A DNA stretch of 64,000 nucleotides. Source: Fabrea salina (Eukaryota; Ciliophora; Heterotrichea; Heterotrichida; Fabreidae). Positions within the stretch are counted from its first letter, which is position 1. Every line of letters starts with the position of its first letter. Below are positions 1-17,829 of the stretch, in pieces. Both the position numbers and the translations under genes were made by a program. Below the pieces are notes generated by a model, which did no database searches, was not told the DNA's origin, and saw only the letters and a program-made list of their open reading frames with translations. The stretch spans positions 1 through 64,000 of the forward strand of contig JALIHJ010000012.1 of assembly GCA_022984795.1 (NCBI GenBank). Direction: 5' to 3'.

Positions 1-747
1 AACACCCTAACACCCTAACACCCTAACACCCTAACACCCTAACACCCTAACACCCTAACACCCTAACACCCTAACACCCTAACACCCTAACACCCTAACA
101 CCCTAACACCCTAACACCCTAACACCCTAACACCCTAACACCCTAACACCCTAACACCCTAACACCCTAACACCCTAACACCCTAACACCCTAACACCCT
201 AACACCCTAACACCCTAACACCCTAACACCCTAACACCCTAACACCCTAACACCCTAACACCCTAACACCCTAACACCCTAACACCCTAACACCCTAACA
301 CCCTAACACCCTAACACCCTAACACCCTAACACCCTAACACCCTAACACCCTAACACCCTAACACCCTAACACCCTAACACCCTAACACCCTAACACCCT
401 AACACCCTAACACCCTAACACCCTAACACCCTAACACCCTAACACCCTAACACCCTAACACCCTAACACCCTAACACCCTAACACCCTAACACCCTAACA
501 CAACACCCTAACACCCTAACACCCTAACACCCTAACACCCTAACACCCTAACACCCTAACACCCTAACACCCTAACACCCTAACACCCTAACACCCTAAC
601 ACCCTAACACCCTAACACCCTAACACCCTAACACCCTAACACCCTAACACCCTAACACCCTAACACCCTAACACCCTAACACCCTAACACCCTAACACCC
701 TAACACCCTAACACCCTAACACCCTAACACCCTAACACCCTAACACC
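1..747. repeat. Telomere, (AACACCCT)n
   Basis: The window opens with an uninterrupted 8-bp tandem repeat, a permutation of CCCTAACA on this strand (TGTTAGGG on the other), so this is the left end of a linear chromosome. There are 62 perfect units to position 496, one shortened 5-nt unit (AACAC) at 497-501, then about 30.75 further units. The repeat stops abruptly at 747 and is followed by unique AT-rich DNA. CCCTAACA-type repeats are known from heterotrich ciliates such as Stentor and Blepharisma. Confidence 0.97.
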
Positions 748-1387
748 AAATCAGTAAAGTAAATAAGTAATTCTGAGTATTAGGGTAAGTAAAATGAAAA
801 AGTGTTGGAACTAAGCAATGAATAAGTACATGGAATATGAATGACTTAGAGCATTCAATAGTCTGTGAGTAAACTAGAATGTCTGAATACAGTCTACAAG
901 ACTAAGTAGAATGCACAAGTAACAAGAGGTAGATACAAGGTTGCTCATCACTCACAATAACCTGGTTACTAAATAAGAGTATTGGTATGTCTGTGAACTA
1001 AAGCAAGCACTGGAGTCTTAAGTAATGAGTTGTTAAGTAGTTACTTAGTAGATCACTAAGAGATAACTAAGGCAGTGTCTATTAGATGGTGAGTTCTGAA
1101 TGTTACTCAGTAGAAGACACTCTAGTCATCAAGAATAATTGGTGATTGAGTGTTTAATTGAAGTAGGATTAAATTGAGTAGTGGCAACAAGTCTAAACCC
1201 TAACAACCTTGAATACTTAGTCAACGTAGTTCTGTTTTCATGAATATAGGCAGTTTAGAGACTTACAAAAGGAATCAATTAGTCAATGACTACTAAGTAG
1301 TAACCTTCAAAGCACTCACTTCAAACTTGACTCTATTAAATACCTCCAAAGAGCTCCTTAAAGTCTTGTTGGTTAATTGCTTTGACA
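748..1387. other. Subtelomeric non-coding DNA
   Basis: No credible gene is seen. The stretch is AT-rich and full of short related words such as TAAGTA, AGTAAGT and ACTTAGTAG on both strands. One or two isolated telomere-like words occur (around 780 and 1195), too short to be real interstitial telomere blocks. A 75-codon open frame at 1327-1554 runs into the duplicated block and has no recognisable protein features. Confidence 0.6.
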
Positions 1388-2439
1388 ATGCACTTCTCTC
1401 AGCAGTGAAGTACTTCTCCAGGATTAGTGTTCTTTGGTCTAAGTCTTTTAGTTGTCATCAATGTTCAATGAAGTTAATCAAAGTCTCTTCAGTTGTTCTG
1501 AGTATTGAAAGAAAGTATTCAAAACACTTCAAAAGACTGCATTGGGTTGTTTGATTAGTACTCTTCAAGGGTTTTCTAGAGAACAAAAGTTAAGACTGTG
1601 AGTACCTTTAAACGTTATGCACCTTCAAAAATGAAAGTATTCAGTTAAGTTTTAAACTAACATATTTTCTGCACACTATAGATCTTAGTACTTTTAGGCT
1701 CAGAAACTCTGGCAACAAAGATCATGATCCTGAAGAAGAACTCAAAATCAAAGAGACTGAAGAAGTAACTACCATAAACAAGTAGTAAAGCATCTAGTTA
1801 TCTGCATTCTGTCCTTTGAGTTGTGTAATGAATGCATTGCTACTAGACTTATAGGTAGACAAGAACAAAAACTACATAGTGTGTAATGTCCTAATTGGTA
1901 ACTAGAAACAGAACATACACTAAAGGAATTCCAAGTTAGAGAAGTTTGGTAGATCTAAATGTCCTTGATCTTAGAGTGAATTTCAAAGGAAGTATCAAGT
2001 AACAATGCAACCTAAATTATCTGAGTCTTCTAAAAGACAAGAACCAGGTACAGTCAATAATAGACTCCATAAGTACTTACTAGGTTTTCTAATTTTAGAT
2101 GCTCCAAACAAGTACTTCTGAAGCTAGGATAGAAAGTGGTACTGAACAAAGCATACTATTACAGACTCCTGGTGTATCATTAAGGGTAGGTAAATGAAGA
2201 CTTTAAATCCAATTCAGTTTTGGATAATTGAACTCTGTGGAGATGAACTGGGTGTAGCATCCATAGGAGAACTCAAAATCAAAGCATGACAAAGAAGTTG
2301 TTGAGGTTAACAAAGAAGGACTCAGAAGTAACTGAAAAAGAACACTCAATACAACTTAGCGGTTAGCTTAAAGAATCCAAGTTTTGATATGCTACTTAAA
2401 GACTGCAGAATCAAACACTTGTTATAGTAATGCTAGTTT
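1388..2439. repeat. Subtelomeric duplication, copy A
   Basis: This non-coding block of about 1.05 kb recurs as a direct repeat at 11540-12490, with long stretches of near identity separated by small indels. Matching landmarks are the sequence beginning ATGCACTTCTCTCAGCAG at the left end and the CTATAGTAATGCTAGTTT-like right end. Both copies lie just downstream (minus-strand sense) of a subtelomeric family gene: the NTPase at 2553-3998 here and an F-box/WD40 gene there. Neither copy holds a conserved open frame. It is probably the 3' flank of the duplicating gene unit. Confidence 0.85.
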
Positions 2440-2552
2440 AGTATTAAATTAAATTGACCTAAGTAGTTGTTGCTGAATATCCCTAAATCATTATCCATCA
2501 AGACCCAGCAACCAAACAAGTTAATCAATAATTGGATAATGAATAAGATTAG

Positions 2553-3998
2553 TTACCTTGGCTCGTTAATTAATTCTTTTAAGAACTCCGAGTCACCATG
2601 CTCTCCAAAGTAAACCCTCATAGCTGATTCAGAGATTCTTGAGTTGAATGTTATGCATTCTATATCGAGTCTTCTGATTAAATTGTCTTCAATCAGCCCT
2701 AGAAACAAGCTTTTCATCTCAAAAGGGAACTTCATCGCTGATTCTTTGAAAAGAGGCTCAAGCACTTCCTTTAGTTCGGACTCATCAACTTTTAAATCCT
2801 TGATTCGAGTCCTCAGTGTGGTTAAGCGCTTTTTGATACTTTCTTTTAAGTACTCCCTCAAACTGATGTCTTTGTAGTTAGAGCAGAAGTCCTTGAACTC
2901 TCTGAGTGATCCATGGTGTTTCAGGTACAACTGCAGGTCTTCATCTGTCACTGACCTGCTATACATTTCTGCTAGTTGTTTCATCCAGTTGGTGACTTCT
3001 TCTCCTTCTGGGTAACTGAATGGGAAACTCTTGACATCACATCTTCGATCAATGACACTGAGTGATCCAATTCGACCTGGAAGGTGTTGATCACTGCTGA
3101 CCAGAATCGCTTTGGCTAGCTCTTCTCTAGGGAAGTCAATTACCAGTTCTTGAATGAAGCCAGCCCCTTCTGAAATTTTGTAGTCGCCTTGTAGGATCTC
3201 TTGGACATTGTCGAAAATGAGGACTGGCTTCTTTCCTTGCTCAGTTAGATCTTTTAGACAGTCTTCGAGCATAATTTCGTTATTTCTTGAGTAACCTTGA
3301 GCTCCCAAAACTGAGTAGAGGTTCAGCCATAGATTCTCCTTTTGTTCTCTCAAGTCTACGTACACAGAAACGAACTGGGTCTCAGTGTCTGAGTACTTTT
3401 TGAGCATGCCAGGGTTGCTAATGACATGGCAAAGTCTTTGCATAAAGGTAGACTTGCCTATGCCTTTGGGTCCGTAGACCACGTACACTCCTCTCTCAAT
3501 GGGCTTTTCAAGGTGGTTGATCCACCAACGAGTAAGTTCAGGGTTTTCAATCAAAGGACCTTCTACTTCTGGTGCTGGCTTGGGCTGAATCAGAGTCTCT
3601 TTGATTTTTTGGATGCTGGATTGAGGGTCTTTAAGCCCGACCTCTATCTTAGTGTTTTGGAGTTGTTCTTTGTTGAATTTCCTTTGGTTCATGTAGGTCA
3701 GGTAGGCTACAAAGACTGCGAGGAAGGATATAGCTGCATTCGGAGGAATCATTCTTAGCCAGGGAGGGAAGTTGACGACTTCGTAGATTTCTGTACCTTC
3801 CTCAACAGTGAGGTTGTCTTGCTTGAGCTTTTTCCACACAATGCCGTCACCGCTTGCGAATAAGGACTTTTCGCCTATTTCAGCGATACTCTCTCCTTGA
3901 GTGAACCTTTCGAATCTGACCTTGTAAAGTCTCAAGTCTCCGGAGTATCCCTGGGGAACTCTGAGCTTGTGGAAGTTGCGTTTGACCTGATTTAGCAT
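2553..3998 (-). CDS. Subtelomeric membrane-anchored P-loop NTPase, copy 1
   Basis: This 481-residue protein belongs to a family with two more intact copies (5155-6678, 8423-9835). The N-terminus is basic and looks like a possible mitochondrial presequence. Residues about 30-75 have the G-D-L-G-V-DG-V-G-I spacing of a biotinyl/lipoyl-like domain, but no modifiable lysine is evident. A hydrophobic segment at about 86-103 is a likely membrane anchor. The rest is an AAA/STAND-like NTPase: Walker A GPKGIGKST at 176-184, Walker B VLIFDN at 259-264, and a sensor-like ILVSSD near 298. The ATG is fixed by alignment with the paralogues and by the shared upstream element at 3999-4012. It is the most divergent of the three. 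The substrate is unknown; mitochondrial location is inferred only. Confidence 0.8.
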   Translation of the reverse strand: MLNQVKRNFHKLRVPQGYSGDLRLYKVRFERFTQGESIAEIGEKSLFASGDGIVWKKLKQDNLTVEEGTEIYEVVNFPPWLRMIPPNAAISFLAVFVAYLTYMNQRKFNKEQLQNTKIEVGLKDPQSSIQKIKETLIQPKPAPEVEGPLIENPELTRWWINHLEKPIERGVYVVYGPKGIGKSTFMQRLCHVISNPGMLKKYSDTETQFVSVYVDLREQKENLWLNLYSVLGAQGYSRNNEIMLEDCLKDLTEQGKKPVLIFDNVQEILQGDYKISEGAGFIQELVIDFPREELAKAILVSSDQHLPGRIGSLSVIDRRCDVKSFPFSYPEGEEVTNWMKQLAEMYSRSVTDEDLQLYLKHHGSLREFKDFCSNYKDISLREYLKESIKKRLTTLRTRIKDLKVDESELKEVLEPLFKESAMKFPFEMKSLFLGLIEDNLIRRLDIECITFNSRISESAMRVYFGEHGDSEFLKELINEPR

Positions 3999-4012
3999 TT
4001 ATTACCATTAAA
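3999..4012 (-). promoter_or_regulatory. Conserved start-proximal element of the NTPase family
   Basis: The 14 bp directly upstream of the ATG (TTTAATGGTAATAA on the coding strand) are identical in all three NTPase genes. In this copy the flank diverges immediately beyond it, which suggests constraint on a core promoter or start-context element. Function is inferred from conservation alone. Confidence 0.5.
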
Positions 4013-4604
4013 GTGGGGGTGGATGCTTTGAGTTACCTGGTTTGATGTTACTGTGAGATAGACAGTTGGAAAGGCCATTCTGATGGTTCAGACAGAAAAA
4101 GCTAGTTGATAGGAGTTAACTGGAGTCAAGGCCGGTCTGGGTCAGACTTTAATCATATAATTACTTAGTTAACATTCTTTAACAAACTCTCTTGTGGTTT
4201 GCAGAAAGATTACTTTCTATTCTGAATTGATACTTAGCTTATAACCAAGTGGAATGAAACAACTGTAAGGTGGACTATTGAAGAAATAAGTGCTTACTAG
4301 CTAGAGTTAAAAGTCAACTTAGGACCTGAAACGTAGCTAAAGGCACTATCAAGAGAATCAGCTGCAAGTATAATATTAACTGGAACCTAAGCATAAAAGC
4401 AGAATCTTGGTCGGAACAATGAAAATTGGTTTGCAAACGATGATACTTAAGAGTTGAATAACAGAAGTCTTGCCAAAGCATCAATCATGAACTGCAAAAG
4501 CTTAACATGCAACCACCCCCACAATGCACTAATTAGGAATAAATTCAAGTGTAAGTAATAAACTTTGAATACGTTAGTTAATCATGAGTCTCTAGATCTG
4601 GATG
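4013..4604. other. Intergenic, nothing recognised
   Basis: About 590 bp of AT-rich sequence between the first NTPase gene and a WD40 pseudogene. No open frame, RNA gene or clear repeat was seen. The right end may hold unrecognisable remains of the 3' part of the pseudogene. Confidence 0.5.
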
Positions 4605-4984
4605 TCTTCTGTTTTAGATATATATGGTGATAGCCAACCATTATGTCCTTTGAGTACTTGGGTTACTTGTCCAGCAGCTAGACTCCACACTAGAATGGTT
4701 GAATCATCACTAGCAGACACTAGTATCCCTTTGCTCAGAGACACAGCCTTCAAGGATCTTAGTTTGTTTGAACACAGGTTTTAGTACTTCAGAGTGGAAA
4801 CAAGCTTCATAGAATTGCTTGTTGACTCTTGCAATGCTAATCACCTCCTCAGACTCAAAAACTTAAGCAACTCGAGAATAGGTTTTAAGTTACCCAATTC
4901 TCTAAAGGTGAATAGTTTCTTTGGTTTCTTCCAGACTCCGACAGTTTCGTCCTAATTTCCACTAATAATCAGCCTAGGCTCTAT
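4605..4984 (-). pseudogene. F-box/WD40 pseudogene, 5' part only
   Basis: Read on the minus strand, this matches the first third of the intact F-box/WD40 genes at 12574-13611 and 14844-15905: the short N-terminal WD segment, the F-box-like block and the first propeller blade. The position of the start codon reads ATA instead of ATG, the frame carries further disruptions, and homology ends after about one blade. It lies 170 bp downstream of the NTPase gene at 5155-6678, the same order seen at two other places in the array. Confidence 0.8.
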
Positions 4985-5154
4985 TTTGATGCAGTATCAG
5001 AAAAGTTGAGAATTAGTCCCATTAAAGATTAAACTTTAAATAGTAGTTTATTAAGAGCTTTACAACTCATCGGAATATTGCTACTGATTAGTATCCAAGC
5101 TGTGTATAATGTAAGCATTACCATCTAGTAGACTAGTGCTAACAACCTAGAAAA

Positions 5155-6678
5155 TTAAATGCTAATTTTATTAATTAACTGCTTTAGGAACTCAGAGTCA
5201 CCATGCTCTTTGAAGTAGACTCTTAAAGCAGACTCAGAGATTCTTGAGTTGAAAGTGACGTATAAAGGAGCACTTCTTTCGGAAGTAATGCGCTGTTTAC
5301 CAATTCCCTTGATAAAGTCATCTTCAATCAGTTTTAAGAGCAGGTTTTTAATTTTGTAGGAGAATTTCATCTTTGGTTTCCTGAAAAGGGGCTCCACTAA
5401 TCTCTTCAGTTCAGACTGATCAACTTGCGACTTCTCGATTTGAATAGTCAGTAAGTCTAGTTGCTTTTGAATAGAGTACTCAAGGTATTCTCTTAGACCT
5501 ATTTCCTTGTGTCTAGCACAGAAGTGTTCGAACCTTCTAAGAGACCCATTGTACTTCAGGAACAATTCTAAGTCTTCGTTACTCACTGACCTGTTGTACA
5601 TTGCAGCTATTTGATTCATCCAGTTGATGACTTCGTCTCCTTCTAGGTAGTTGAACAAGAATCCATGCACATCGCACGATTCGTCTACTAGTCTAAGTGA
5701 CCTGATTCGGTTTGGAAGTTGGTGTTGATTGGTGACTAGAACCACTTTAGCTAGGCTTTTCTCAGTTAAGTCAAGTATCAAGTCTTTGATAAACATAGCA
5801 CCCTGTAAGTCGTTATTAAGCTCAGGAAGAATAAAGTCAGCATTGTCGAATATGAGAATAGGTCTTTTTCCTTCTTTAATAAGTTCTTGTAGACACTCCT
5901 CGAGCAAAGTTCGCTTAATTCTCGAGTGGTTAACTACTCCTAAACTGGAGTATAAGCTTTCCCACAAATTCCCTCTTATCTTCTCTAAATCGAAGTACAG
6001 CGGCGCGAATTGTCTTTTGGTAGAAGAGTACTTTTGGAGAACTTGGGAGTTACTTAGAACATAGCAGAGTCTCTTCACAAAGGTAGACTTGCCTATGCCA
6101 GTTGGTCCATGAAGAACATCCACTCCTCTGGTCATAGATTGGTCAAGGTAGTTAATCCACTCAACAGTAAGATCAGGACTTTCGATTAAAGCACCCCTTA
6201 CTTCTGGTTCTGGTTTAGGCCTGGACAAAACTTCTTTAAGTTTGTTCAGATCCTTTTTGGAATAGTCAGCATCTCCAATCCAGGCAGCCTTTACTCCTGG
6301 TTGAGGTGGGAACAAAGATTCTTCAAGGTTCTTTTGCTTTTCTTTTAACTGAAGTTCTTTTGTCTGGTCTTTGAAAGTTAGAGAAACTAAGTAAACTCCG
6401 AAGAAGAACAGAGTTGCTTTCACAGGGAGTGTTTGCAACCAAGAAGGAAACTGGATGACTTTATAGATGTCTGAGCCTTCTTGAACAAACAAACCATCTC
6501 TGTTGATTCTACTCCAGACCATCCCGCTAGTTTCTGCAAGCAGGAGCTTATCTCCAACTCTGGCAATCTCTTTTCCTGGACTGAAGGTCTGGAACCCAGT
6601 CTTGTAGAGTTTCAAGTCTCCAGAGTAACCTTCTGGGACTCTTAGTTTGGAAAAGCTACGTGCACTCCGAGAAAGCAT
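5155..6678 (-). CDS. Subtelomeric membrane-anchored P-loop NTPase, copy 2
   Basis: At 507 residues this is the longest family member. The order is a basic N-terminus, lipoyl-like block at about 28-74, membrane segment at about 86-102, a charged linker (about 103-165) with an insertion absent from copy 3, then the NTPase core. Walker A is GPTGIGKST at 191-199, Walker B is an ILIFDN, and the sensor-like strand reads VVLVTN. A helical C-terminal region ends with a conserved EHGDSEFLK motif near the stop. The first 250 bp are almost identical in DNA to copy 3 while later parts diverge, which suggests recent gene conversion or duplication. A WD40 pseudogene follows at 4605-4984. Biochemical role unknown. 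Confidence 0.8.
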   Translation of the reverse strand: MLSRSARSFSKLRVPEGYSGDLKLYKTGFQTFSPGKEIARVGDKLLLAETSGMVWSRINRDGLFVQEGSDIYKVIQFPSWLQTLPVKATLFFFGVYLVSLTFKDQTKELQLKEKQKNLEESLFPPQPGVKAAWIGDADYSKKDLNKLKEVLSRPKPEPEVRGALIESPDLTVEWINYLDQSMTRGVDVLHGPTGIGKSTFVKRLCYVLSNSQVLQKYSSTKRQFAPLYFDLEKIRGNLWESLYSSLGVVNHSRIKRTLLEECLQELIKEGKRPILIFDNADFILPELNNDLQGAMFIKDLILDLTEKSLAKVVLVTNQHQLPNRIRSLRLVDESCDVHGFLFNYLEGDEVINWMNQIAAMYNRSVSNEDLELFLKYNGSLRRFEHFCARHKEIGLREYLEYSIQKQLDLLTIQIEKSQVDQSELKRLVEPLFRKPKMKFSYKIKNLLLKLIEDDFIKGIGKQRITSERSAPLYVTFNSRISESALRVYFKEHGDSEFLKQLINKISI

Positions 6679-6692
6679 TTATTACCATTAAA
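6679..6692 (-). promoter_or_regulatory. Conserved start-proximal element of the NTPase family
   Basis: The same 14 bp as at 3999-4012 sit directly before the ATG. Here the shared flank extends about 40 bp further upstream, matching copy 3, before the two diverge. Confidence 0.5.
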
Positions 6693-6778
6693 TCAAAGTA
6701 AGATCCAAAAAGAATTACTGGTGCGGAGACACAGCATACGAACCTAGCAGGTTTCTCCACAACTATCCACAATCACTC

Positions 6779-7241
6779 AAGGGCTTGAATAAAAAAACTA
6801 ATAGTGGGATACTTCACAAAGTAACATGTGCAGACTTCCCACCGAAGCAACAACAGAGCAAGAAGTACAGATGAAAACCTACATCAAACACAACAGCAAC
6901 AGGAGAAACTCAATAGCAACAATACATGGATGGAGAGCAGGTTACAACGATACAGCGTATATTCAACATCTAAGACACCAACAAAACAACAACACATGCC
7001 AAACACGTGGAGAAATAGAGACAGTAAGGCACATAACAAACGAATGCCCAGCCTGCCAGTACGAAAGACAGGTCCTAATTGAAGAACTAATAGCACACGA
7101 AGTCCCATCAAGAACTTTGTTGACTGGGTTTACAGAAGAAGAAACTGTAACAAACTCAAAAGGCCCGCAAAAAAGTCAACGCTCTCTGTATTCTTAAAAA
7201 GGCCTAAGGGCTCGATAACAATTAAATAAATAGTGGGATAC
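6779..7241 (+). mobile_element. LINE (non-LTR retrotransposon) 3'-end fragment
   Basis: An open frame at 6826-7197 encodes about 123 residues resembling the end of a LINE ORF2, downstream of the reverse transcriptase. It has a WRAGYNDTAYIQHLR-like segment, then CQTRGEIETVRHITNECPAC, the Cys/His knuckle (C..E..H....C) typical of jockey/R1-type elements, then a conserved YER. No reverse transcriptase domain is present, so it is 5'-truncated. Imperfect copies of one tail-like sequence flank it: AAGGGCTTGAATAA...AATAGTGGGATAC at 6779-6812 and AAGGGCTCGATAAC...ATAGTGGGATAC at 7206-7241. This could be two tandem element tails or a long target duplication. Its codon use (AAC, ACA, CAA rich) differs from neighbouring genes. 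Confidence 0.6.
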
Positions 7242-7346
7242 CTGATACTTATTGAATCAGGATAAGCAAAAGACAAGCACCAGAAAACTCTTTGAACCAA
7301 GGGAGCTACTTAACTAAAAACAGCACTATCATCAGTCTAGACCATT

Positions 7347-7814
7347 TATTTATGACTCTTGGCCAAGTAGCCCTTCGCTCCTAGTATTCTCCCTAGTTTC
7401 ACCTCTTCTATTTACAACCTTTTCGAATTGTAATTTTTCCTGTTTTCTTCAGTGTTCTTTGATTGATTTCCTCCCGTTTTTGAGGGTCCTACCTGTACCG
7501 GGTAGGATACGATACTCACCTTATTTATGCTCCTTGGCGATAGGACAAGGTTTTTTGAGGTTTGGGGTAACCGGTTCTCCTTCCAATCAATTCGTCAGGA
7601 TTCAACTTCAGGTACCTTTATGCTCACACGGGGAATCCCATGCATTAGCATGTTCATCCAAAAACTCTAAAATAGGGGTTTCTGACAAGGGCAAGCCTCC
7701 CTCTTCTCCTCTTTGCCTTCCTTCCACCCTCCTAGATGATAACTCGTGCTCGTACTACGTATCTGAGGCCGATCTCCAGGAGAGTGTTTTACGTATCCCT
7801 ACTTTTAAATTATG
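7347..7814. mobile_element. Unidentified 468-bp insertion with 13-bp target duplication
   Basis: The direct repeat AGTCTAGACCATT occurs at 7334-7346 and again at 7815-7827, framing 468 bp of visibly different composition: C-rich and pyrimidine-rich on this strand, with runs such as CCTCCCTCTTCTCC. Such flanking duplications mark an insertion. No terminal inverted repeats, reverse transcriptase or transposase are seen. The 118-codon open frame at 7459-7815 lacks any known motif and runs into the right duplication, so it is probably chance. A SINE-like or LINE-derived element read on the minus strand is possible, but no clear A/B box or long poly-A was found. Confidence 0.6.
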
Positions 7815-7892
7815 AGTCTAGACCATTAAATAAAGAAAAGCCCTGAGATCAAACCATAAACTGAACGGTTTATAAGTAGTTAAACTAGTTAG

Positions 7893-8300
7893 TTAAGAAT
7901 AAAATAAAGTTAACTGACCATACATTATGAGTATGGCCTTTAGTTCTTGAGTCTGTAGACCTGTAGAAAGGTCCCAAACTTTCACTGAGAATTCTGGATA
8001 GTCACTTCCAGATACCAAGTACCTGTTATCACTTGATAGCTTGACTGAAAGTACTCTTCCAGTGTGTCCTCTGAGTACTTGAGTAGTTTCTCCCGAAGTG
8101 AGACTCCACACTCTAATGGTTTTGTCCTGACTTCCTGAGACTGCAAACTGCCCGTCACTTGAAATAGCCACTGACCAGACATACTATCATGCCCTTGCAA
8201 CAGCCTAATTAAGTCTCCAGAGACAATGCATTCAATGTATTGGTCATGGTCACTGACCTAATAGTACCATTATGGCCTTTGAATACCTGCTTTAGAACAG
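7893..8300 (-). pseudogene. WD40-family pseudogene, 3' part
   Basis: On the minus strand this matches the last blades of the F-box/WD40 genes (blade words [20 protein letters not shown] and KVWDLSTG). A one-base difference in the final blade relative to the intact genes throws the C-terminus out of frame, and upstream blades are missing or collapsed around 8200-8300. It lies about 120 bp downstream of the NTPase gene at 8423-9835, repeating the NTPase-then-WD40 order. Confidence 0.8.
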
Positions 8301-8422
8301 TAGTAGAAGCGAGGTATTAAGTCAAGCACTCTACAGCTTAGAATTTGGAATTTAGCTTGTGATTGATAATTGAAGATCAAACACAAAAAGACTGCAATCA
8401 AGCATTCTGTCCGAATAGAAGA

Positions 8423-9835
8423 TTAGATCTTAATTTGATTAATTGACTCCTTTAGGAACTCAGAGTCACCATGTTCTTTGAAATAAACTCTTAGAGCACA
8501 CTCAGAGAATCTAGAATTGAAAGTGGCATATAAGGGACCAACTCTTCTAAGAACATTATCTTCTATCAGTCCTAGAAACAAGCTTTCCATTTGGTAGGGT
8601 ATCTTCATCTTTGAGTCTTTGAAAAGGGGTTTTACGAGTTCCTTGAGTTCAGACTCATCAACTCGTGATCTTCTGATCTGATCTTCTATATTAGTTAGTT
8701 TTTTTCTCATAAAGAACTGCAGGTAAGCTCTCACATCTGTTTCCTCTTCCCTACAGAACTTTTCGAACAGTCTAAGAGACTCACAATACTTCATGAACAA
8801 TTCTAGGTCTTCGTTACTCACTGACTTGTTGTGCATTGCAGCTATTTGACTCGCCCATTCAATAACTTCTTCTCCTTCTAGGCGGTTGAACACCAATTCA
8901 TGCACATCACAGTCTTGGTCTACCAGTTTAAGTGACTTAATTCTGTCTGCAAGTTGATTTTCATTAGTCACTATAACTACTTTGGCTAGTCTTTTCTCAG
9001 TTAAGTCAAGCACTAAGTTCCTGATGAACCTAGCACCTTCTGAGTAATTATCATAATGGAGAAGAATCCACTCAGGGTTGTCAAAAATCAGCACAGGTTT
9101 CTTTCCTTCCTTATTGAGTTCTTCTAAACACTTTTCAAACAAAACTTTCTTGTCTACTGAGTCGTTGGTTACTCCCAACTCGGAACACAACTTTTCCCAT
9201 ACTCCTCTTTCTGTGCTTTGCAAGCTAAAGTAGAGTGGTGCAAACTGGGTTGTGGTAGAAGAGTACTTTTGGAGAACTTGGGAGTTACTTAGAACATAGC
9301 AGAGTCGCTTCATGAAGATAGACTTTCCTATGCCATATGTTCCGTAAACGACATCCACTCCTCTAGACATAGGTTGGTCAAGGTAGTTAATCCACTCAGC
9401 AGTAAGATCAGGACTTTCGATTAAAAAGCCCTCTACCTCTGGTTCTGGTTTAGGCCGGCACATGGCTTCTTTGAGTCGTTTAAGGTCTTTTCGAATTTCC
9501 TTAGGGTAGATTTCATTTTCTTGACTTTTGGAGACCAAGAAAACTAAGTAAACTCCGAAGAAGAACAGAGTTGCTTTCACAGGGAGTGTTTGCAACCAAG
9601 AAGGAAACTGGATGACTTTATAGATGTCTGAGCCTTCTTGAACAAACAAACCATCTCTGTTGATTCTACTCCAGACCATCCCGCTAGTTTCTGCAAGCAA
9701 GAGCTTATCTCCAACTCTGGCAATGTTTTCTCCTGGACTGAAGGTCTGGAACCCAGTCTTGTAGAGTTTCAAGTCTCCAGAGTAACCTTCTGGGACTCTT
9801 AGTTTGGAAAACCTACGTGCACTCCGAGAAAGCAT
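8423..9835 (-). CDS. Subtelomeric membrane-anchored P-loop NTPase, copy 3
   Basis: 470 residues with the same layout as copy 2: basic N-terminus (MLSRSARRFSKLRVPEGYS), lipoyl-like block, membrane segment at about 86-101, NTPase core and a C-terminal EHGDSEFLK. The Walker A is GTYGIGKS (165-172) followed by Ile where the others have Thr; this still fits GxxxxGK[ST]. Walker B reads VLIFDN and the sensor-like strand VVIVTN. The first 250 bp and the upstream flank are nearly identical to copy 2, while the NTPase part has diverged. It is divergently oriented to the F-box/WD40 gene starting at 10190. Function unknown. Confidence 0.8.
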   Translation of the reverse strand: MLSRSARRFSKLRVPEGYSGDLKLYKTGFQTFSPGENIARVGDKLLLAETSGMVWSRINRDGLFVQEGSDIYKVIQFPSWLQTLPVKATLFFFGVYLVFLVSKSQENEIYPKEIRKDLKRLKEAMCRPKPEPEVEGFLIESPDLTAEWINYLDQPMSRGVDVVYGTYGIGKSIFMKRLCYVLSNSQVLQKYSSTTTQFAPLYFSLQSTERGVWEKLCSELGVTNDSVDKKVLFEKCLEELNKEGKKPVLIFDNPEWILLHYDNYSEGARFIRNLVLDLTEKRLAKVVIVTNENQLADRIKSLKLVDQDCDVHELVFNRLEGEEVIEWASQIAAMHNKSVSNEDLELFMKYCESLRLFEKFCREEETDVRAYLQFFMRKKLTNIEDQIRRSRVDESELKELVKPLFKDSKMKIPYQMESLFLGLIEDNVLRRVGPLYATFNSRFSECALRVYFKEHGDSEFLKESINQIKI

Positions 9836-9849
9836 TTATTACCATTAAA
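9836..9849 (-). promoter_or_regulatory. Conserved start-proximal element of the NTPase family
   Basis: Third copy of the 14-bp element found directly before the ATG of the family genes; see 3999-4012. The next 30 bp also match the flank of copy 2. Confidence 0.5.
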
Positions 9850-10189
9850 TCAAAGTAAGATCCAAAAGGATCTATTCAAGTAAGCAGTGGTGGAGACACA
9901 ATTACAAAACCAGCCTTGATCGAAGACTAAAAATTTCTAATAGCAGATAGTTGATCTTTATTACTTAGACTCATGAAGCTTTGGCAGACACATGTGATAT
10001 CCATGGAAGGGTAAATATTTGGTAGCCAGGATCGATGAACTCCTTTAAATACAATGAAGTATTGGTCGCAAAGTTGCTTGATTACAAATGCACTTTCTTG
10101 AGCTTCTAAGGGCTATTCGCAATTAAAGTATCACATCACCTGCCTTGAAGCTTCAAAATAGTAACTGGAATATCTAACTTCTGTTATAA
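9850..10189. other. Divergent intergenic spacer
   Basis: About 340 bp between the start codons of the NTPase at 9835 (minus) and the F-box/WD40 gene at 10190 (plus). It must hold both promoters. TTATAA lies just before the plus-strand ATG. Nothing else was recognised. Confidence 0.4.
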
Positions 10190-10981
10190 ATGGAGCCCAG
10201 TTTGATTGTTAGTGGAAGCAGTGATAAGACAGTTAGGGTTTGGAGAGTTCCTCAAAAACTGTACAATTTTGAAAGATTGGGTAACCTTAGGCCTGTCTTG
10301 GAAGTGCTTAAGTTTCTGAGTCCTGAGGAAGTGGTTGGAATTGCAAGGGTCAACAAACGATTCTACGAAGCTTCTTTCCATTCCGAAGTGCAGAAGCCCG
10401 TTTTTAAACAGACAAAAGTTCTGAGAGGCCATACGGGTGGAATATGGTCAGTGGCTATGTCTGAAAGTAGGAATATGCTTGTGTCAGGCAGTGTTGACAA
10501 CACGGTTAGAGTATGGAATTTAGCTACTGGAGAAGTAACTCAAGTATTGACGGGCCACAGCAAAGGAGTCTCTTGTGTAGCAATCTCTGCTAAAGAGCAG
10601 TCTATGGCATCTGGAAGTACAGACAACAATCTTAAACTGTGGAGCCTAAGTACCCTGAAACAGACTCTAGTCTTGGAAGGCCATAGTGCCAGGGTAAATT
10701 CAGTGGCAATCTGCAGTAATGACGAAACACTTGTTTCCGGTAGTGATGACAATACACTCAGAGTGTGGAGTTTAAACACTGGAGAACAGATTCTGACTTT
10801 TGAAGGCTACAGCAGCAGAGTTAATTCAGTGGCTGTTTTGACGAATAACGAGTTTGTTGTTTCAGGAAGTTGGGACTGTACTGTCAGACTGTGGAGATTA
10901 AGCACTGGAGAACAGGTTAGGGAAAACTCTTACTTTTGTGATAGACTACCTAAGGAAGTTCAAGGAGTCTGTGTTGGGTAA
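10190..10981 (+). CDS. F-box/WD40 protein, C-terminally rearranged copy
   Basis: The first about 245 codons match the family genes: a lone WD segment LIVSGSSDKTVRVW at the N-terminus, the F-box-like block LEVLKFLSPEEVVGIARVNK at about 40-60, then four blades ending in SGSWDCTVRLWRLSTGEQV. After about 10915 the similarity stops and a short unrelated tail leads to TAA. The missing blades include the C-terminal GH...VWSVNLI that closes the propeller in complete members, so it may not fold as a closed ring. It is the only family member on the plus strand. F-box/WD40 proteins normally recruit substrates to SCF ubiquitin ligases. It may be a pseudogene or a chimera with the next feature. Confidence 0.6.
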   Translation: MEPSLIVSGSSDKTVRVWRVPQKLYNFERLGNLRPVLEVLKFLSPEEVVGIARVNKRFYEASFHSEVQKPVFKQTKVLRGHTGGIWSVAMSESRNMLVSGSVDNTVRVWNLATGEVTQVLTGHSKGVSCVAISAKEQSMASGSTDNNLKLWSLSTLKQTLVLEGHSARVNSVAICSNDETLVSGSDDNTLRVWSLNTGEQILTFEGYSSRVNSVAVLTNNEFVVSGSWDCTVRLWRLSTGEQVRENSYFCDRLPKEVQGVCVG

Positions 10982-11491
10982 TCATGTGATTCTGACAAAA
11001 GAATATGATTACAGAATAGAGGGCAGTAGGAATGAACGTGTAATAGGGCAAATATCGTTTGAAAGCACTTTAATACACGAACTGGGTCATATATTGTACC
11101 GATTTCATAGGAAGAAAACTGATACAAACTCAGTCCAGAAAAGCCTTGCAAAAGAATCAGAATGATTCAAGAACAACTCAACGAAGAGGTCAAACTTCCT
11201 CAGAAAAGAACACCCAGTGACACCTTTGAAGAAACTCAAGAAAGTGAGATGGGCAATCACTTAGAGACTCAGCTATTTGGGTTCAGGATTGAAGAAATGA
11301 ACCTAGACCTAGCTGAGTTCTTATTAGAAATTCCTAACTGGAATGCATCTCTAGAAAGTTTCCAGGAAGAAGTACTCAAGAACTACAGACAAGGAGTCAG
11401 CAAAGGACAGAAGTCATTCAAGATGAAGAAGTTAGTTGAGTACAGAGCAGGCATTGCTGGGTGCTTCTACGACATAAACAGACACAAGTGA
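10917..11491 (+). pseudogene. HELGH metallopeptidase-like fragment
   Basis: Starting inside the end of the WD40 frame but in another frame, 10917-11165 encodes a segment with IHELGHILYR, a good HExxH zinc-binding motif with hydrophobic flanks. An overlapping frame at 11162-11491 continues with an ESEMGNHLETQLFG-like acidic segment and a helical C-terminus. An E..G..LE...FG pattern after HELGH recalls poorly described eukaryotic HExxH proteins, so the two frames may be one gene with a frame disruption or an unrecognised intron. There is no ATG-initiated N-terminal domain; the 5' part seems to have been replaced by WD40 sequence at about 10915. Catalytic activity is not supported. Confidence 0.45.
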
Positions 11492-11539
11492 AGAACCTTA
11501 AACACTCTAAGTAATGATTAGAATACTAAGTTCTTGTTG

Positions 11540-12490
11540 ATGCACTTCTCTCAGCAGTGAAGTACTTCTCCAGGATTAGTGTTCTTTGGTCTAAGTCTTT
11601 AGTTGTCATCAATGTTCAATGAAGTTTATCAAAGTCTCTTCAGTTGTTCTGAGTATTCAAAACACTTCAAAAGACTGCATTGGGTTGTTTGATTAAGTAC
11701 CTTCAAAAACGAAAGTATTCAGTTAAAGTTTAGACTAACATATTTTCTGCACACTATAGATCTTAGTACTTTTAGGCTCAGAAACTCTAACCACAAAGAT
11801 CATGATCCTGAAGAAGAACTCAAAATCAAAGAGACTGAAGAAGTAACTACCATAAACAAGCAGTAAAGCATCTAGTTATCTGCATTTTGTCCTTTGAGTT
11901 GTGTAATGAATGCATTGCTACTAGACTTACAGTTAGACAAGAACAAAAACTACATAGTGTGTAATGTCCTAATTGGTAACTAGAAACAGAACACACATTA
12001 AAGGAATTCCAAGTTAGAGAAGTTTAGTAGATCTAAATGGCCCTTGATCTTAGAGTGAATTTCAAAGGAAGTATTAAGTAGCAATGCAACCTAAAATTAT
12101 CTGAGTCTTCTAAAAGACAAGAACCAGGTACAGTCAATAATAGACTCCATAAGTACTTACTAGGTTTTCTAATTTTAGATGCTCCAAACAAGTACTTCTG
12201 AAGCTAGGATAGAAAGTGGTACTGAACAAAGCATACTATCACAGACTTCTGGTGTATCATTAAGGGTAGGTAAATGAAGACTTTAAATGCAATTTCAGTT
12301 TTGGATAATCTGAACTCTGTAGAGATGAACTGAGTGTAGCATCCATAGGAGAACTCAAAATCAAAGCATGACAAAGAAGTTGTTGAGCTTAATAAAGAAC
12401 TCAATACAAGTTAGCAGTTAGCTAAAGAACTCAAGAAGAGTTGTGATATGCTACTCCAGAGTCAAACACTTGCTATAGTAATGCTAGTTT
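11540..12490. repeat. Subtelomeric duplication, copy A'
   Basis: Direct repeat of 1388-2439, shorter by about 100 bp because of several small deletions. Non-coding. It lies downstream (minus sense) of the F-box/WD40 gene at 12574-13611, as copy A lies downstream of the first NTPase. Confidence 0.85.
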
Positions 12491-12573
12491 GTTGAAGACC
12501 TTAATATTACTATGCAAAGTGGAAGCAAGAATGCATCAAGAACTACCAATCAAGTTAATCAAGAATTCAATAA

Positions 12574-13611
12574 TTAAATTAAGTTAACTGACCATACATG
12601 ACTAGTATGGCCTTTTAGTCTTTGAGTCTGTTGACCTGTAGAGAGGTCCCAAACTCTGACTGAGCAGTCTGGATAGCCACTTCCAGACACCAAGTACTTG
12701 TCGTCACTTGATATGTTGACTGGAAATCTTTCTCCAGTGTGTCCTCTGAGTACTTGAGTAGTTTCTCCAGAAGTGAGACTCCACACTCTAATGGTTTTGT
12801 CATCACTTCCTGAGACTACAAACTGGTCATCGCTTGAAATATCCACTGACCAGACCCAACCACCATGTCCTCGTAGCACTCTAATTAGGTCTCCAGAAGC
12901 TAGACTCCAGACTCTAACAGTGGAGTCCACACTCCCAGAGACAATGTATTGGTCAGTCTTCGAAATGGCCACTGAGTTGACATCACCACTATGATCCATA
13001 AGGACTCTAATCATTTCTCCACTAGCTAAACTCCACACCCTGAGTGTGGTGTCATAACCACAAGATACAATGAATTGGTCGTTCTTGGAAATGACCACTG
13101 AGCTAACACCATAACTATGGCCTGTTAGTACCTGAGTGGTTAGTCCAGAAGCTAAACTCCACACTCTAAGTGTTTTGTCCCAACTCCCCGACACAACCCA
13201 CTCGCCATCACTGGAAATGGCCACAGAGTATACTGCGTTACTATGTCCCTGGAGTACTTGGGTTACTTGTCCAGTAGCTAGACTCCACACTCGAATGGTG
13301 AGATCATAACTAGCAGACACTAGTATGCCTTTCTTGAGAGACACAGTAACTGATCTGACACGTCCAGTATGGCCTTTAAACACTCTAGTTTGTATGAACC
13401 CAGGTTTAAGTACTTCAGAGTGAAAAGAGGCTTCATAGAATTGCTTATTCACTCTTGAAATTCCGATAACCTCTTCAAGACTCAAGAACTTAAACACCTC
13501 AAGAATAGGTCTTTGATTACCTACTTTTTCGAAGGTGAATAGTTTCTTTGGTTCTCTCCAAAGTCTGACAGTCTTATCAGCACTTCCACTAACAATCAGC
13601 TTAGGTTCCAT
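12574..13611 (-). CDS. F-box/WD40-repeat protein
   Basis: 345 residues, apparently intact. The N-terminal LIVSGSADKTVRLW supplies the outer strands of a WD blade. It is followed by an F-box-like block (LEVFKFLSLEEVIGISRVNK, about 37-56) and then six full WD blades, each with GH...SV.IS...VSGS.D.T.RVWSL..G. The protein ends GHTSHVWSVNLI, which would pair with the N-terminal strands to close a seven-bladed ring. The F-box therefore sits inside the closing blade rather than ahead of the propeller. The expected role is substrate recognition in an SCF-type ubiquitin ligase. A degenerate NTPase copy lies just upstream (13925-14130) and the A' repeat downstream. The TTATC before ATG is shared with the 14844-15905 gene. 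Confidence 0.8.
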   Translation of the reverse strand: MEPKLIVSGSADKTVRLWREPKKLFTFEKVGNQRPILEVFKFLSLEEVIGISRVNKQFYEASFHSEVLKPGFIQTRVFKGHTGRVRSVTVSLKKGILVSASYDLTIRVWSLATGQVTQVLQGHSNAVYSVAISSDGEWVVSGSWDKTLRVWSLASGLTTQVLTGHSYGVSSVVISKNDQFIVSCGYDTTLRVWSLASGEMIRVLMDHSGDVNSVAISKTDQYIVSGSVDSTVRVWSLASGDLIRVLRGHGGWVWSVDISSDDQFVVSGSDDKTIRVWSLTSGETTQVLRGHTGERFPVNISSDDKYLVSGSGYPDCSVRVWDLSTGQQTQRLKGHTSHVWSVNLI

Positions 13612-13924
13612 TTATCAGGTGGTACCAGAAAAGATCTAATGACTACTCTTTAAGGGAAATAGAATTAACTCCTACAAAGATTCGATTTAACTAATATATT
13701 CGAGAGTCCAGCTATTTTTTCTTCAGTTACTCAACTAAGAGAATTTCTAGCTATTTTCTTATATCTTATCAGAATGCTGTTCCTGCTGTGTATTGAAGCA
13801 AGTTTGTAGGTGCTGATTAGGTAGTGAGAACTGGGCATTAACATTCTAGGGTTAGAATCTAGACATTGAACATAGATAATTAAAAAACAAGTATACAAGC
13901 AATGCTTAACACGCCTAGAGCTTA
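13612..13924. other. Intergenic, 5' flank of the F-box/WD40 gene
   Basis: The first about 80 bp (a GTACCAGAAAAG block and nearby words) are similar to the flanks upstream of 15905 and of the pseudogene start near 4984, so this is a shared promoter region of the family. Beyond that nothing is recognised. Confidence 0.5.
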
Positions 13925-14130
13925 AGCCTTAGTTGGCTCGTTTAGGAACTCAAAGTCCCATGTTCTTTAAATAATTTTTAGACACTCAGAGAATCTTGAG
14001 TTTAAAATGGTGTATAAGAATCCACGCTTCTGATAGTGCCCTTTCTATTGGTCCTAGAAAAAGCTTTCATTTGATAAGTAACATAATATTTCTGGAGTTT
14101 AGACTCATCAACTGATTTCCAGATTTCTCT
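13925..14130 (-). pseudogene. NTPase-family remnant, C-terminal part
   Basis: About 200 bp on the minus strand align by eye with the last 80 codons of the subtelomeric NTPases. They include degraded forms of the HGDSEFLK end, the FNSR.SE motif and the LFLGLIE segment. Many small indels and missing bases leave no open frame. It directly precedes the F-box/WD40 gene at 12574-13611, giving the third NTPase-then-WD40 pair in the array. Confidence 0.75.
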
Positions 14131-14461
14131 TCAATTCTCCCAGGAGTATCAAGTTGTTGGTTGAGTAGGTCTTGGTGGCTCTTGTTGGCTTCATTGAGTT
14201 TATTGGTAAATTATTCAGTGCACTCTTTAGTTCTTCAAGTAGAATGAGTTGCTCAGAAGCTATTTCTCTAACTTCTGAGACAATGAGGGCGTTTAGTTTA
14301 TTAACTTCCTCTTTCTTATGGGAAATCATGCTGAGCACTCCGTTCATTTGGTCAGTTTCAGTTAGAAGAGCAGCAGTGTGTCCTTGTCTAAGATGAAAAG
14401 CAATCATATGGACACATAAAAGCTCTTCACAAGTGCATTTGGAAATGGCACCCTGAGGCAC
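14108..14461 (-). pseudogene. B-box/coiled-coil fragment
   Basis: A 117-codon open frame without an ATG at its head. Its N-terminus (KCTCEELLCVHMIAFHLRQGH) matches the Cys/His spacing of the B-box-like finger of the gene at 16265-17539 (C..LC.H....H....GH). A helical region rich in Leu, Glu and Lys follows. The propeller expected next is missing and the frame runs into the NTPase remnant. It is best read as the broken front end of a B-box/WD40 relative. Confidence 0.55.
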
Positions 14462-14843
14462 AGTTGGCTAGCATTACAAATGGAAGGTACTAAGAAATCA
14501 GAAGTAATTTAGGAAGTAGATAGGAATTGGTTACTTAAACATAGCCTGAATGGTCGAATGTAATCACAATTGACAAGGAAAAGTTAAGGTACGTAATTAT
14601 TCCACTACTGTATAAGTCTTTTAGTGTTTAACAGTGGTAGAGCTATGCCTTAAAGGCCCAAAGGTTATGGTATCTTCTGACATAGTTAAATTAAAAGAAT
14701 ATCGAAAAGTATTACTTATTAACGATGCTTCAACCGAGTAGAAAGTATTGAGATAATAGTCCGGATCAAACAATACTACAGAGATTCTTAACAATGGCAG
14801 AGAATTCAACCCAGAAATCTAGATGTCAAGAATTCAATAATAA
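14462..14843. other. Intergenic, nothing recognised
   Basis: About 380 bp of AT-rich DNA upstream of the B-box fragment and downstream of the WD40 gene at 14844. No gene, repeat or RNA was identified. Confidence 0.5.
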
Positions 14844-15905
14844 TTAAATTAAGTTAACTGACCACACTTGACTAGTATGGCCTTGTAGTTCTTGAGACTG
14901 TTGGCCTGTAGAGAGGTCCCAAACTCTCACTGAGTAGTCTTCATTACCAGTTCCATCATCTTCATAGCCACCACCACCAGACACTAAGTACCTGTCGTCA
15001 CTTGACAGCTTGACTGAAAGTACTTCTCCAGCGTTTCCTTCTAATACTTTAGTAGTTTCTCCGGAAGCCAGACTCCACACTCTGATGGTTTCGTCATCAC
15101 TTCCTGAGACTACAAACTGCCCATCACTTGAAATAGCAACTGAGTTAACAATACCATCATGTCCTTGAAGGACTCTAATTAGGTCTCCAGAAGCTAGACT
15201 CCAGACTCTAACAGTGGAGTCCACACTCCCGGAGACAATGTATTGGTCGCTCTTCGAAATGGCCACTGAGTAGACACTAAGGTTATGGCCTTGAAGGACT
15301 CTAATCATTTCTCCACTAGCTAAACTCCACAACCTGACTGTAGTGTCATAACCACAAGAGACAATGAATTGATCTTTACTAGAAATAGCTACTGACCTAA
15401 CGAAACCACTATGGCCAGTGAGGACAAAAGTGGCTTTTCCAGAGGATAGACTCCACACTCTAAGTGTGTCGTCTCCAGCCCCCGACACAACCCACTCCCC
15501 ATTGTTAGAAATAGCCACAGAGCATACCTCATCACTATGTCCCTCAAGTAATTGAATCATTTGTCCAGTAACTAGACTCCACACTCGAATGGTGGAATCC
15601 TCACTAGCAGAAACTAATATCCCTTTCTTGAGAGACACAGCAACTGACCAGACACCTCCAGTATGGCCTTCAAGCACTCTAGCTTGTATGAACCCAGGTT
15701 TAAGTACTTCAGGATCGAAAGAGGCTTCATAGAACTGCTTATTCACTCTTGCAATTCCAATCACCTCTTCAGGACTCAGGAACTTAAGTACCTCTAGAAT
15801 AGGTCTCAAATTCCTCGTCCTTTGAAAGCTAAATAGTTTCCTGGTCTCTGTCCAGAGTCTGATGGTATGATCAGCACTTCCACTAACAATCAACCTAGGT
15901 TCCAT
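14844..15905 (-). CDS. F-box/WD40-repeat protein
   Basis: 353 residues with the same layout as the gene at 12574-13611: N-terminal half blade (LIVSGSADHTIRLW), F-box-like block LEVLKFLSPEEVIGIARVNK, six blades, and a closing GHTSQVWSVNLI. The last full blade carries a Gly-rich insertion (SGGGGYEDDGTGNEDYSV) that lengthens one loop on the rim of the propeller. Individual blades are near copies of blades in the neighbouring genes. The start is supported by alignment and by the shared TTATC element before ATG. It is probably a substrate adaptor of an SCF-type ubiquitin ligase; its target is unknown. Confidence 0.8.
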   Translation of the reverse strand: MEPRLIVSGSADHTIRLWTETRKLFSFQRTRNLRPILEVLKFLSPEEVIGIARVNKQFYEASFDPEVLKPGFIQARVLEGHTGGVWSVAVSLKKGILVSASEDSTIRVWSLVTGQMIQLLEGHSDEVCSVAISNNGEWVVSGAGDDTLRVWSLSSGKATFVLTGHSGFVRSVAISSKDQFIVSCGYDTTVRLWSLASGEMIRVLQGHNLSVYSVAISKSDQYIVSGSVDSTVRVWSLASGDLIRVLQGHDGIVNSVAISSDGQFVVSGSDDETIRVWSLASGETTKVLEGNAGEVLSVKLSSDDRYLVSGGGGYEDDGTGNEDYSVRVWDLSTGQQSQELQGHTSQVWSVNLI

Positions 15906-16264
15906 TTATCGAGCAGTACCAGAAAAGGCTCTAAAGTAAATACTTTAAGAGAACTAGAATTAGTTCTGTGAAAGATTAAACTGCAGCTAGTAGTTTATTG
16001 ATAAGTTGGGCTGCCTTCCTTTAGTTACTTTGAGTTATCAGAGGATTGCTAGCTATTTATTTATGAAAATTGGTGCAAGCAGCCTAGGCCTCTGTTTCAA
16101 GTTTTGGGAGTTTTGAGTTTCGTTTTCTTGGGTTGTTTTCCTTCGTCTGGGTCCTTCTATCAAGCTGTATTCTTGAATTCTAGAATTGAAGTTTAGATAT
16201 GAACAACTCAAAAATCTAGATGCCAAATTCTTACAAATAGTTAAATCTTTAGTAGAAAAGTTGA
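15906..16264. other. Intergenic with family-shared 5' flank
   Basis: The 100 bp next to 15905 resemble the flank upstream of 13611 (GTACCAGAAAAG block). The remainder, including a T-rich stretch around 16090-16140, holds nothing recognisable. Confidence 0.45.
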
Positions 16265-17539: not shown

Positions 17540-17829
17540 TTATAATGGAACGTGCGGTGGAAAAAAGGCTTGTGAGAAAGGGAGTTAATTAAATTAGATT
17601 AAATGTGTTTCTAGGCACCTAAAGGATTGGTGATGGTAGAGAGAAATTGAAGTAACCAGAAATCAGACTAGCTATTGGTAGATGCTAGTTGAGAAGATTG
17701 GATTGGTGCTTCAGAAAGCGAATACTTTAAACAACTAAAGAAGGGTCTCAGATTGGTTTAGTATTTAACTTTTTGCTGACCTTCAGATTCTGGCTGTTAT
17801 CTAGGACTACTGAGTTCAATAGAAATAAT

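Follow-up and report, generated by a model that had tools for sequence, protein, structure and literature searches.

The first 64,000 nucleotides of contig JALIHJ010000012.1 of Fabrea salina (the window; its contig is called C7 below, and C8, C83, C98 and so on are other contigs of the same genome) begin with a telomere, behind which open reading frames (ORFs) for nucleoside triphosphatases (NTPases) alternate with F-box/WD40 genes or pieces of them. Three times on the minus strand an NTPase is followed by WD40 sequence. This raises the question whether the two genes form one duplicating module that acts together, as was proposed in the initial annotation, where the pair was likened to a NOD-like receptor (NLR) type of sensor split over two genes. 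The two families are mostly apart in the genome, because over 139 telomeric contig ends they were anti-associated and their adjacency was no higher than in shuffled data; the initial annotation had named such separation as grounds to reject the module. The chromosome end in the window is probably a stack of two separately spread, mostly telomere-facing families, in which the NTPase-WD40 pairs would be a by-product of exchange between chromosome ends and not an operon-like module.

Placement of the two families at chromosome ends

The genome holding the window comprises 18.33 Mb in 103 contigs. Telomeres were present at 87 of the 101 left ends examined (window included; C89 and C90 fell outside the census) and at 52 of the 60 right ends covered out of 103, giving the 139 telomeric ends. 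The telomere of the window is built of an 8-nucleotide repeat, CCCTAACA, which is also given as the telomere repeat of the heterotrich Blepharisma (PMC9942806). The genes inspected read in the standard genetic code. These repeats, the telomeres at most contig ends and the code fit a heterotrich ciliate macronucleus, which the genome probably represents.

For the NTPase, a protein query was run against this genome and the best 85 of 103 candidates were scored. The 116 matches merged into 66 loci, of which 65 were at most 15 kb from a contig end and 65 were directed at the nearer end; the exceptions were C25:65777-66964, which is internal and divergent, and a locus on C100, a 13 kb contig with no telomere at its left end and its right end outside the census. 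The C25 locus, the single internal homologue (a frame of 401 aa, 37% in the main match), is a candidate founder of the telomeric family. WD40 genes were sought with an F-box/WD40 N-terminus, with another WD40 N-terminus (best 150 of 162 candidates scored) and with a WD40 C-terminus (best 150 of 1601). Their matches merged into at least 175 loci, at least 103 of them within 10 kb of a contig end, and 66 of the 107 matches of the F-box N-terminus lay in open frames of at least 320 aa. The two ends of C39, of which the right one has no telomere, carry matching WD40 matches in mirror order, as if one had been copied to the other.

Ends were classified by what lay within 10 kb of the telomeric end, unless stated otherwise. 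Both families were present at 13 ends, the NTPase only at 44, WD40 only at 43 and neither at 39. At all 57 ends with an NTPase, this gene faced the telomere and was closer to it than any detected WD40 sequence; outermost is here meant with respect to the two families, as other genes are not excluded at every end. WD40 was the first of the two families at 43 ends and faced the telomere at 38 of these. Of the 57 NTPase ends 13 had WD40 sequence, a smaller share than the 43 of 82 among the other ends (odds ratio 0.27, p=0.0005). Counting within 6 kb (p=4e-6) or 15 kb (p=0.006) left the direction unchanged, and the anti-association was stronger on contigs of at least 100 kb (11 of 47 NTPase ends versus 40 of 65, p=0.0001). 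Measured inward from the NTPase, which allows for the length of the block, the odds ratio was 0.42 (p=0.016). Part of the anti-association arises because the NTPase block displaces WD40 genes.

A module would have led one to expect adjacency beyond chance. WD40 sequence less than 600 bp to the telomere side of an NTPase and on the same strand was found at 2 of the 139 ends (three pairs), and shuffling the WD40 sets among ends 5000 times gave means of 2.72 ends and 2.75 pairs (P = 0.78 and 0.53, respectively). Within 1.5 kb on the inner side of the NTPase, WD40 sequence was present at 4 ends versus 4.45 in the shuffles. A further pair lies on C98, near a right end outside the telomere census, and one pair of the window itself, that with the NTPase remnant, was missed by the genome-wide protein search.

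The terminal unit and its ATPase

From the telomere inward, the features of the window are the following.

1-747: telomere, 8-nucleotide repeat CCCTAACA, read in the sequence
760-2540: block A (repeat A), a telomere-associated stretch that separates the terminal NTPase from the telomere; many other ends have full-length copies with 89-97% likeness
2553-3998, minus: terminal NTPase 1, 481 aa, telomere-facing (ORF and Pfam); family at 61 contig ends
4604-5029, minus: WD40 fragment 1, which retains the 5' half of an F-box/WD40 gene (tblastn and DNA match)
5155-6678, minus: NTPase 2, 507 aa (ORF and Pfam)
7903-8289, minus: WD40 fragment 2, which retains the 3' end of a WD40 gene (tblastn and DNA match)
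8423-9835, minus: NTPase 3, 470 aa (ORF and domains)
10190-10981, plus: short F-box/WD40 ORF, 263 aa, directed away from the telomere (ORF and domains)
11540-12490: internal partial copy of block A, about 91% (DNA match)
12574-13611, minus: F-box/WD40 gene, 345 aa, with a high-confidence prediction of a beta-propeller (domains and structure model)
13929-14113, minus: remnant of an NTPase 3' end (71.7% alike, in 205 aligned columns, to a second remnant, on C98)
14844-15905, minus: F-box/WD40 gene, 353 aa (ORF and domains)
16265-17539, minus: WD40 gene, 424 aa, with an N-terminus of another, cysteine-containing kind (ORF and domains)

The three NTPase ORFs and the three large WD40 ORFs, all on the minus strand, are real and carry the domains first assigned to them. 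The WD40 fragments, the NTPase remnant and repeat A were likewise recovered at the places initially noted, by tblastn, by DNA similarity to the remnant on C98 and by DNA matches, respectively. An Rfam scan of positions 1-18500 gave nothing at the gathering score.

When the best 40 of 93 candidates were scored, block A had 44 matches; these fell at 40 places, most of them between a telomere and an NTPase. Block A was present at 34 of the 57 NTPase ends, at 3 of the 43 WD40-first ends and at none of the 39 other ends. Telomere, block A and NTPase form a recurrent terminal unit. C7 751-4019, which spans block A and the NTPase, is 88-94% identical at the six other ends examined (C10, C14, C15, C13, C32 and C11; from 949 in C32). 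The divergence between copies is 3-17% in block A and 6-12% over block A and NTPase at these six ends. The start-codon edge of the NTPase (C7 4019) was considered as a sharp border of the unit and rejected: other pairs of ends are alike for 0.5 to 4.5 kb further inward, and the unit therefore has no fixed inner border. At other ends the match to C7 breaks off within the NTPase gene, about 330-400 nucleotides from its start, where a second type of N-terminus begins. This position appears to be an exchange point between two alternative heads and a common ATPase part. In close NTPase pairs the head was less diverged at silent sites (proportion of silent differences, pS, 0.06-0.09) than the rest (mostly 0.14-0.30).

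Exchange was also apparent along the gene. Near-site incompatibility was 0.292 among 14 NTPase sequences with 374 sites (C25 and both inner C7 NTPases were left out), versus 0.517 after shuffling (standard deviation 0.005; lowest of 300 shuffles 0.504). The nearest neighbours of the copies shift along the gene and mutually compatible sites cluster, which argues for strong recombination among ends. The NTPase copies may have been spread and homogenised by exchange between chromosome ends, the ATPase travelling with block A as the outermost unit. At the same time the coding sequence is maintained. Of 21 loci examined 4 were broken (C11, C12 and two on C83) and 17 open: the copy of 401 aa on C25, and 16 that measure 466-507 aa when counted from the start they share. 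The ratio of replacement to silent divergence (omega) was 0.22-0.42 in all pairs with a silent divergence (dS) below 0.8 (83 of 136 pairs) and 0.32 over 7 disjoint pairs. In every 30-codon window the proportion of replacement differences (pN) was below pS. The NTPases are under purifying selection, and the idea of the ATPase as a diversifying partner was dropped because pN lay below pS along the whole gene.

Pfam placed AAA_22 above cut-off in all three NTPases of the window, iSTAND in two and ATPase_2 in one, and the Walker A motif GxxGxGKS is visible in the alignment. In the same three proteins NACHT stayed below its cut-off (22.6, 25.9 and 19.6 bits versus 26.7), as did NB-ARC in two (15.5 and 13.8 versus 23.5; the third had no listed match). 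No helicase family exceeded its cut-off in them, PF00910 RNA_helicase scoring 20.3 versus 21.5 in one copy. NCBIfam gave matches below cut-off only, and a Pfam search with the N-terminal 107-125 aa of two NTPases gave none. A lipoyl-like fold of the N-terminus, an impression from reading, was not confirmed in this part of the model, where the predicted local distance difference test (pLDDT) score is below 50. Among the matches that Foldseek listed for the weak NTPase model were ORC/Cdc6, TnsC, Clp, NLRP9 and Apaf-1, to which the ATPase core bears a weak likeness at query TM-scores (TMq) of about 0.25-0.35. The first 24 residues have a net charge of +3 to +5. In 16 of 17 NTPases the most hydrophobic stretch of the N-terminal part is near residue 85, convincing as such in some copies and marginal in others. 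The product may be an AAA+/STAND-like ATPase anchored in a membrane, with a basic N-terminus that possibly targets it to an organelle; an organelle membrane ATPase is our guess from this N-terminus and the membrane segment. Two peptide patterns were used to look for prokaryotic relatives, and none of the 110 stretches found in the prokaryotic genomes searched was confirmed.

Telomere-linked helicases of fungi and the Y' elements of yeast are outer genes, present at many ends in one orientation and alike along with the adjacent non-coding DNA. The NTPase shares all of this. It could accordingly be asked whether it is a telomere-linked selfish or end-maintenance gene of that kind and not a gene of cell physiology, the more so as its outer position and fixed orientation hold at every NTPase-bearing telomeric end, it travels with block A and its one clearly internal copy is divergent. 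In contrast to the helicases and Y' elements, however, it codes for an AAA+/STAND-like ATPase that has a hydrophobic segment and in which no helicase family exceeded its cut-off; the protein has a basic N-terminus, a hydrophobic stretch and an ATPase core, and nothing links it to DNA. We therefore regard a selfish or end-maintenance gene as unlikely. The var genes of Plasmodium and the variant surface glycoprotein (VSG) genes of trypanosomes also have many telomere-proximal copies with strong recombination between them. The NTPases resemble these in being telomere-proximal and mosaic in many copies, but differ in being conserved throughout; signs of a surface antigen were sought through domains only.

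Variation and selection in the WD40 family

Fifty-nine distinct repeats of 42 aa, collected from 17 ORFs, are highly alike WD40 repeats. They were numbered from the G of GH as 1. Because the finder demanded the 42-residue spacing together with H at 2, V at 6, S or C at 8 and either V or A at 9, constancy at these positions is partly built in. When this was not demanded of every repeat, pN at positions 2, 6, 8, 9 and 24 was 0.03, 0.08, 0.01, 0.05 and 0.02, respectively. Among the 59 repeats, positions 12, 20 and 30 are invariant and 24 varies once; the most variable positions are 4, 5, 7, 17, 23, 25, 37 and 42.

For the quartet 5, 7, 23 and 25, omega over 10 disjoint pairs drawn from 21 genes was 2.90 (2.38-3.51) on the overall dS and 1.63 (1.36-1.98) on the quartet's own dS. 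The other positions of the regular repeats had an omega of 0.33, the N-terminal 78 codons 0.34, one irregular repeat 0.46 and the joined class 0.39. Taken singly on the overall dS, positions 5, 7, 23 and 25 gave 5.38, 2.46, 4.00 and 1.24. Only 2 of 111930 four-position sets, the quartet included, reached its mean pN. By this counting method the quartet as a group is under positive selection; the gene pairs are partly non-independent, and recombination affects counting methods. Of the two gene filters used, each of which passed 21 ORFs, the earlier left 20 after removal of one duplicate and the later left one gene unpaired.

In the model of the gene at 12574-13611 (mean pLDDT 85.5), positions 5-7 fall where strand a begins, and 23-25 in the turn between strands b and c. 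By sequence the closest solved chain is that of 2ymu, a WD40 protein that is itself highly repetitive; the closest folds are those of designed propellers and WDR5. Substrate receptors of the Skp1-cullin-F-box (SCF) ligases, of the Cdc4 and beta-TrCP type, combine an F-box with a WD40 propeller. The ciliate family is like them in having F-box-like helices and a WD40 propeller, with four Skp1 matches over cut-off in the genome. It is unlike Cdc4 and beta-TrCP in that its F-box is below cut-off and does not precede the propeller: within residues 1-70 of the 12574-13611 protein the F-box-like stretch comes after the first strand pair (5-10 and 14-19), so that in the model the F-box seems to be inserted into the closing blade. 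The weak F-box suggests that the WD40 proteins are ubiquitin-ligase receptors. They may be SCF substrate receptors with a probable F-box, which would form a recognition repertoire in which the framework is constant and a few positions per repeat diversify at the predicted interaction face.

Several points weigh against these interpretations. Position 4, outside the quartet, has an omega of 2.20, above that of position 25. With the earlier gene filter (10 pairs from 20 genes) the quartet's omega was 2.56 on the overall dS and 1.51 on its own, the latter with an interval of 1.00-2.29 that touches 1. Silent divergence is raised at the quartet, a sign of repeat exchange, and the omega on the overall dS is therefore inflated. 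The F-box scores of 18.2 versus 24.3 and 18.1 versus 20.5 bits are below the Pfam cut-offs, and in the 12574-13611 model the helices at 37-61 are short and pLDDT is below 50 at 24-69.

In the fungus Podospora anserina the repeats of HET-D and HET-E have selected codons at 7, 9, 25 and 27 around the conserved 8 and 26, in the d-a loop and the b-c turn (PMC1805685). These NACHT-WD40 proteins (fungal NLRs) and the ciliate family have in common highly alike repeats with two diversifying pairs of positions, 18 apart, around conserved residues. The ciliate proteins differ in that they have no NACHT, their N-terminus being a weak F-box or a cysteine-containing piece, in that position 4 varies like the quartet, and in that the genes are many more and near telomeres. 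Since position 25 is weaker and position 4 is added, the match is close, not exact. It is thus the WD40 family, by itself, for which a part in recognition is supported. No publication on a ciliate subtelomeric F-box/WD40 family was found among the titles and starts of abstracts listed, in a search that took in little of the subscription literature and by which absence from print is not shown.

Both families could also be passive passengers of telomeric exchange, subtelomeric junk with no selected role. Block A and its flanks are indeed alike over kilobases whatever they encode, and 4 of the 21 NTPase loci are broken, to which remnants have to be added. However, passengers should drift to an omega of 1 throughout. 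The 17 open NTPase loci with an omega of 0.2-0.4, and a WD40 framework far below 1 with a few positions above it, count against this, and we consider it improbable.

Origin of the pairs in the window

The pairs in the window were then to be accounted for in another way. An end of C83 matches C7 2481-6713 at 95% identity for 4.3 kb, which indicates that the series NTPase, WD40 fragment, NTPase was copied as a single segment. C83 also has a 91% copy of C7 9541-13376, without the 2.8 kb between. At the seam, 9541-9870 and 6384-6713 are 98% identical over 330 bp, at the 5' ends of NTPases 3 and 2. In both the second and the third C7 pair the stretch that separates WD40 from NTPase matches the C98 spacer, and in the first pair it matches C83, at scores reached by 0 of 300 shuffles. 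The likeness of the first C7 spacer to the others is marginal (scores reached in 5 of 300 shuffles with the second, 46 with the third and 17 with C98). The spacers common to the second C7, third C7 and C98 pairs point to what was probably one ancestral juxtaposition. Overall the local adjacency would go back to a small number of such events, which three contigs have in common.

The broken genes bear on the same history. WD40 fragment 1 (4642-5005) aligns with the 5' half of the intact gene (13242-13633) and fragment 2 (7895-8221) with its 3' end (12569-12897). As they retain opposite halves they are not copies of one pseudogene, and the idea of simple tandem copying of the three pairs was dropped. 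The telomere side of the terminal NTPase is without WD40 sequence. Repeat A matches itself at 1388-2439 and 11540-12490, about 91% alike in two stretches, and the inner copy may mark an older end buried by stacking. Seam, spacers and inner block A are traces to be expected if ends were exchanged unequally and stacked on one another. Possibly an end of one type was joined to, or exchanged with, one of the other type, after which the result would have been copied to a few ends.

Other pieces of sequence were observed between the genes. Positions 14224-14488 are 74-76% alike to stretches adjoining WD40 genes on C8 and C16 and were read as the remnant of another WD40 N-terminus. The repeat at 10919-11661 is 86-91% alike to the left ends of C9, C12 and C18. 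A retroelement-like piece (6814-7230) lies between NTPase 2 and WD40 fragment 2. Its plus-strand ORF 6826-7197 has 38 matches in the genome, some in long open frames (C51:172766, a frame of 796 aa), and no match in a Pfam search; its tail is of the C..C/H type, which by eye we take to resemble the end of non-long-terminal-repeat (non-LTR) reverse transcriptases.

That NTPase and WD40 genes duplicate and act together as a split NLR-like sensor is, on this evidence, very unlikely. The recurrence of order and strand in the window, the copied C7-C83 segment and the related second, third and C98 spacers speak for a duplicating unit locally, and the WD40 family does have variability of the recognition type. 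Genome-wide, however, the unit does not hold, the families being anti-associated and no more adjacent than in shuffles, and each of the three window pairs has one broken partner (fragment 1, fragment 2 and the remnant at 13929-14113). Nor was the proposed NACHT/NLR-type composition borne out, with separate ORFs and NTPases failing the NACHT and NB-ARC cut-offs. Ends duplicated or mis-joined in assembly are scarcely credible: short contigs such as C98 and C100 could be alternative versions of other ends, but the copies differ too much for error and both families are on many contigs of at least 100 kb, where the anti-association is stronger.

The stacking of two separately spread families is thus retained, with some evidence to the contrary. 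For the C98 pair and for the second and third pairs of C7, duplication as a unit is in fact probable. At the 19 telomeric left ends read for at least 10 kb, WD40 sequence was present at 5 of 13 NTPase ends versus 5 of 6 others, which is the same direction in too few ends to decide. The WD40 counts are lower bounds because only top candidates were scored. The structure model of the NTPase is weak (mean pLDDT 57), its ATPase core being moderate.

As a tentative and somewhat doubtful picture, the chromosome ends of this ciliate would hold dozens of F-box/WD40 receptors, wired to a ubiquitin ligase, of which the propeller faces diversify almost exactly as those of fungal non-self receptors; hypervariable WD40 recognition would then have arisen without an NLR, and many of the remaining ends would be capped by a telomere-facing mosaic ATPase. 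If this is true, the same WD40 recognition face would be under diversifying selection in a ciliate and in fungi on different protein chassis, and self/non-self or parasite recognition in free-living protists would be directly testable. The ciliate macronucleus contains many copies of each chromosome, which assort at random, and is made anew in each sexual generation. Random assortment could make the WD40 repertoire vary between cells, and the ATPase would be a conserved protein-coding gene that marks many ends in a nucleus remade each sexual generation.

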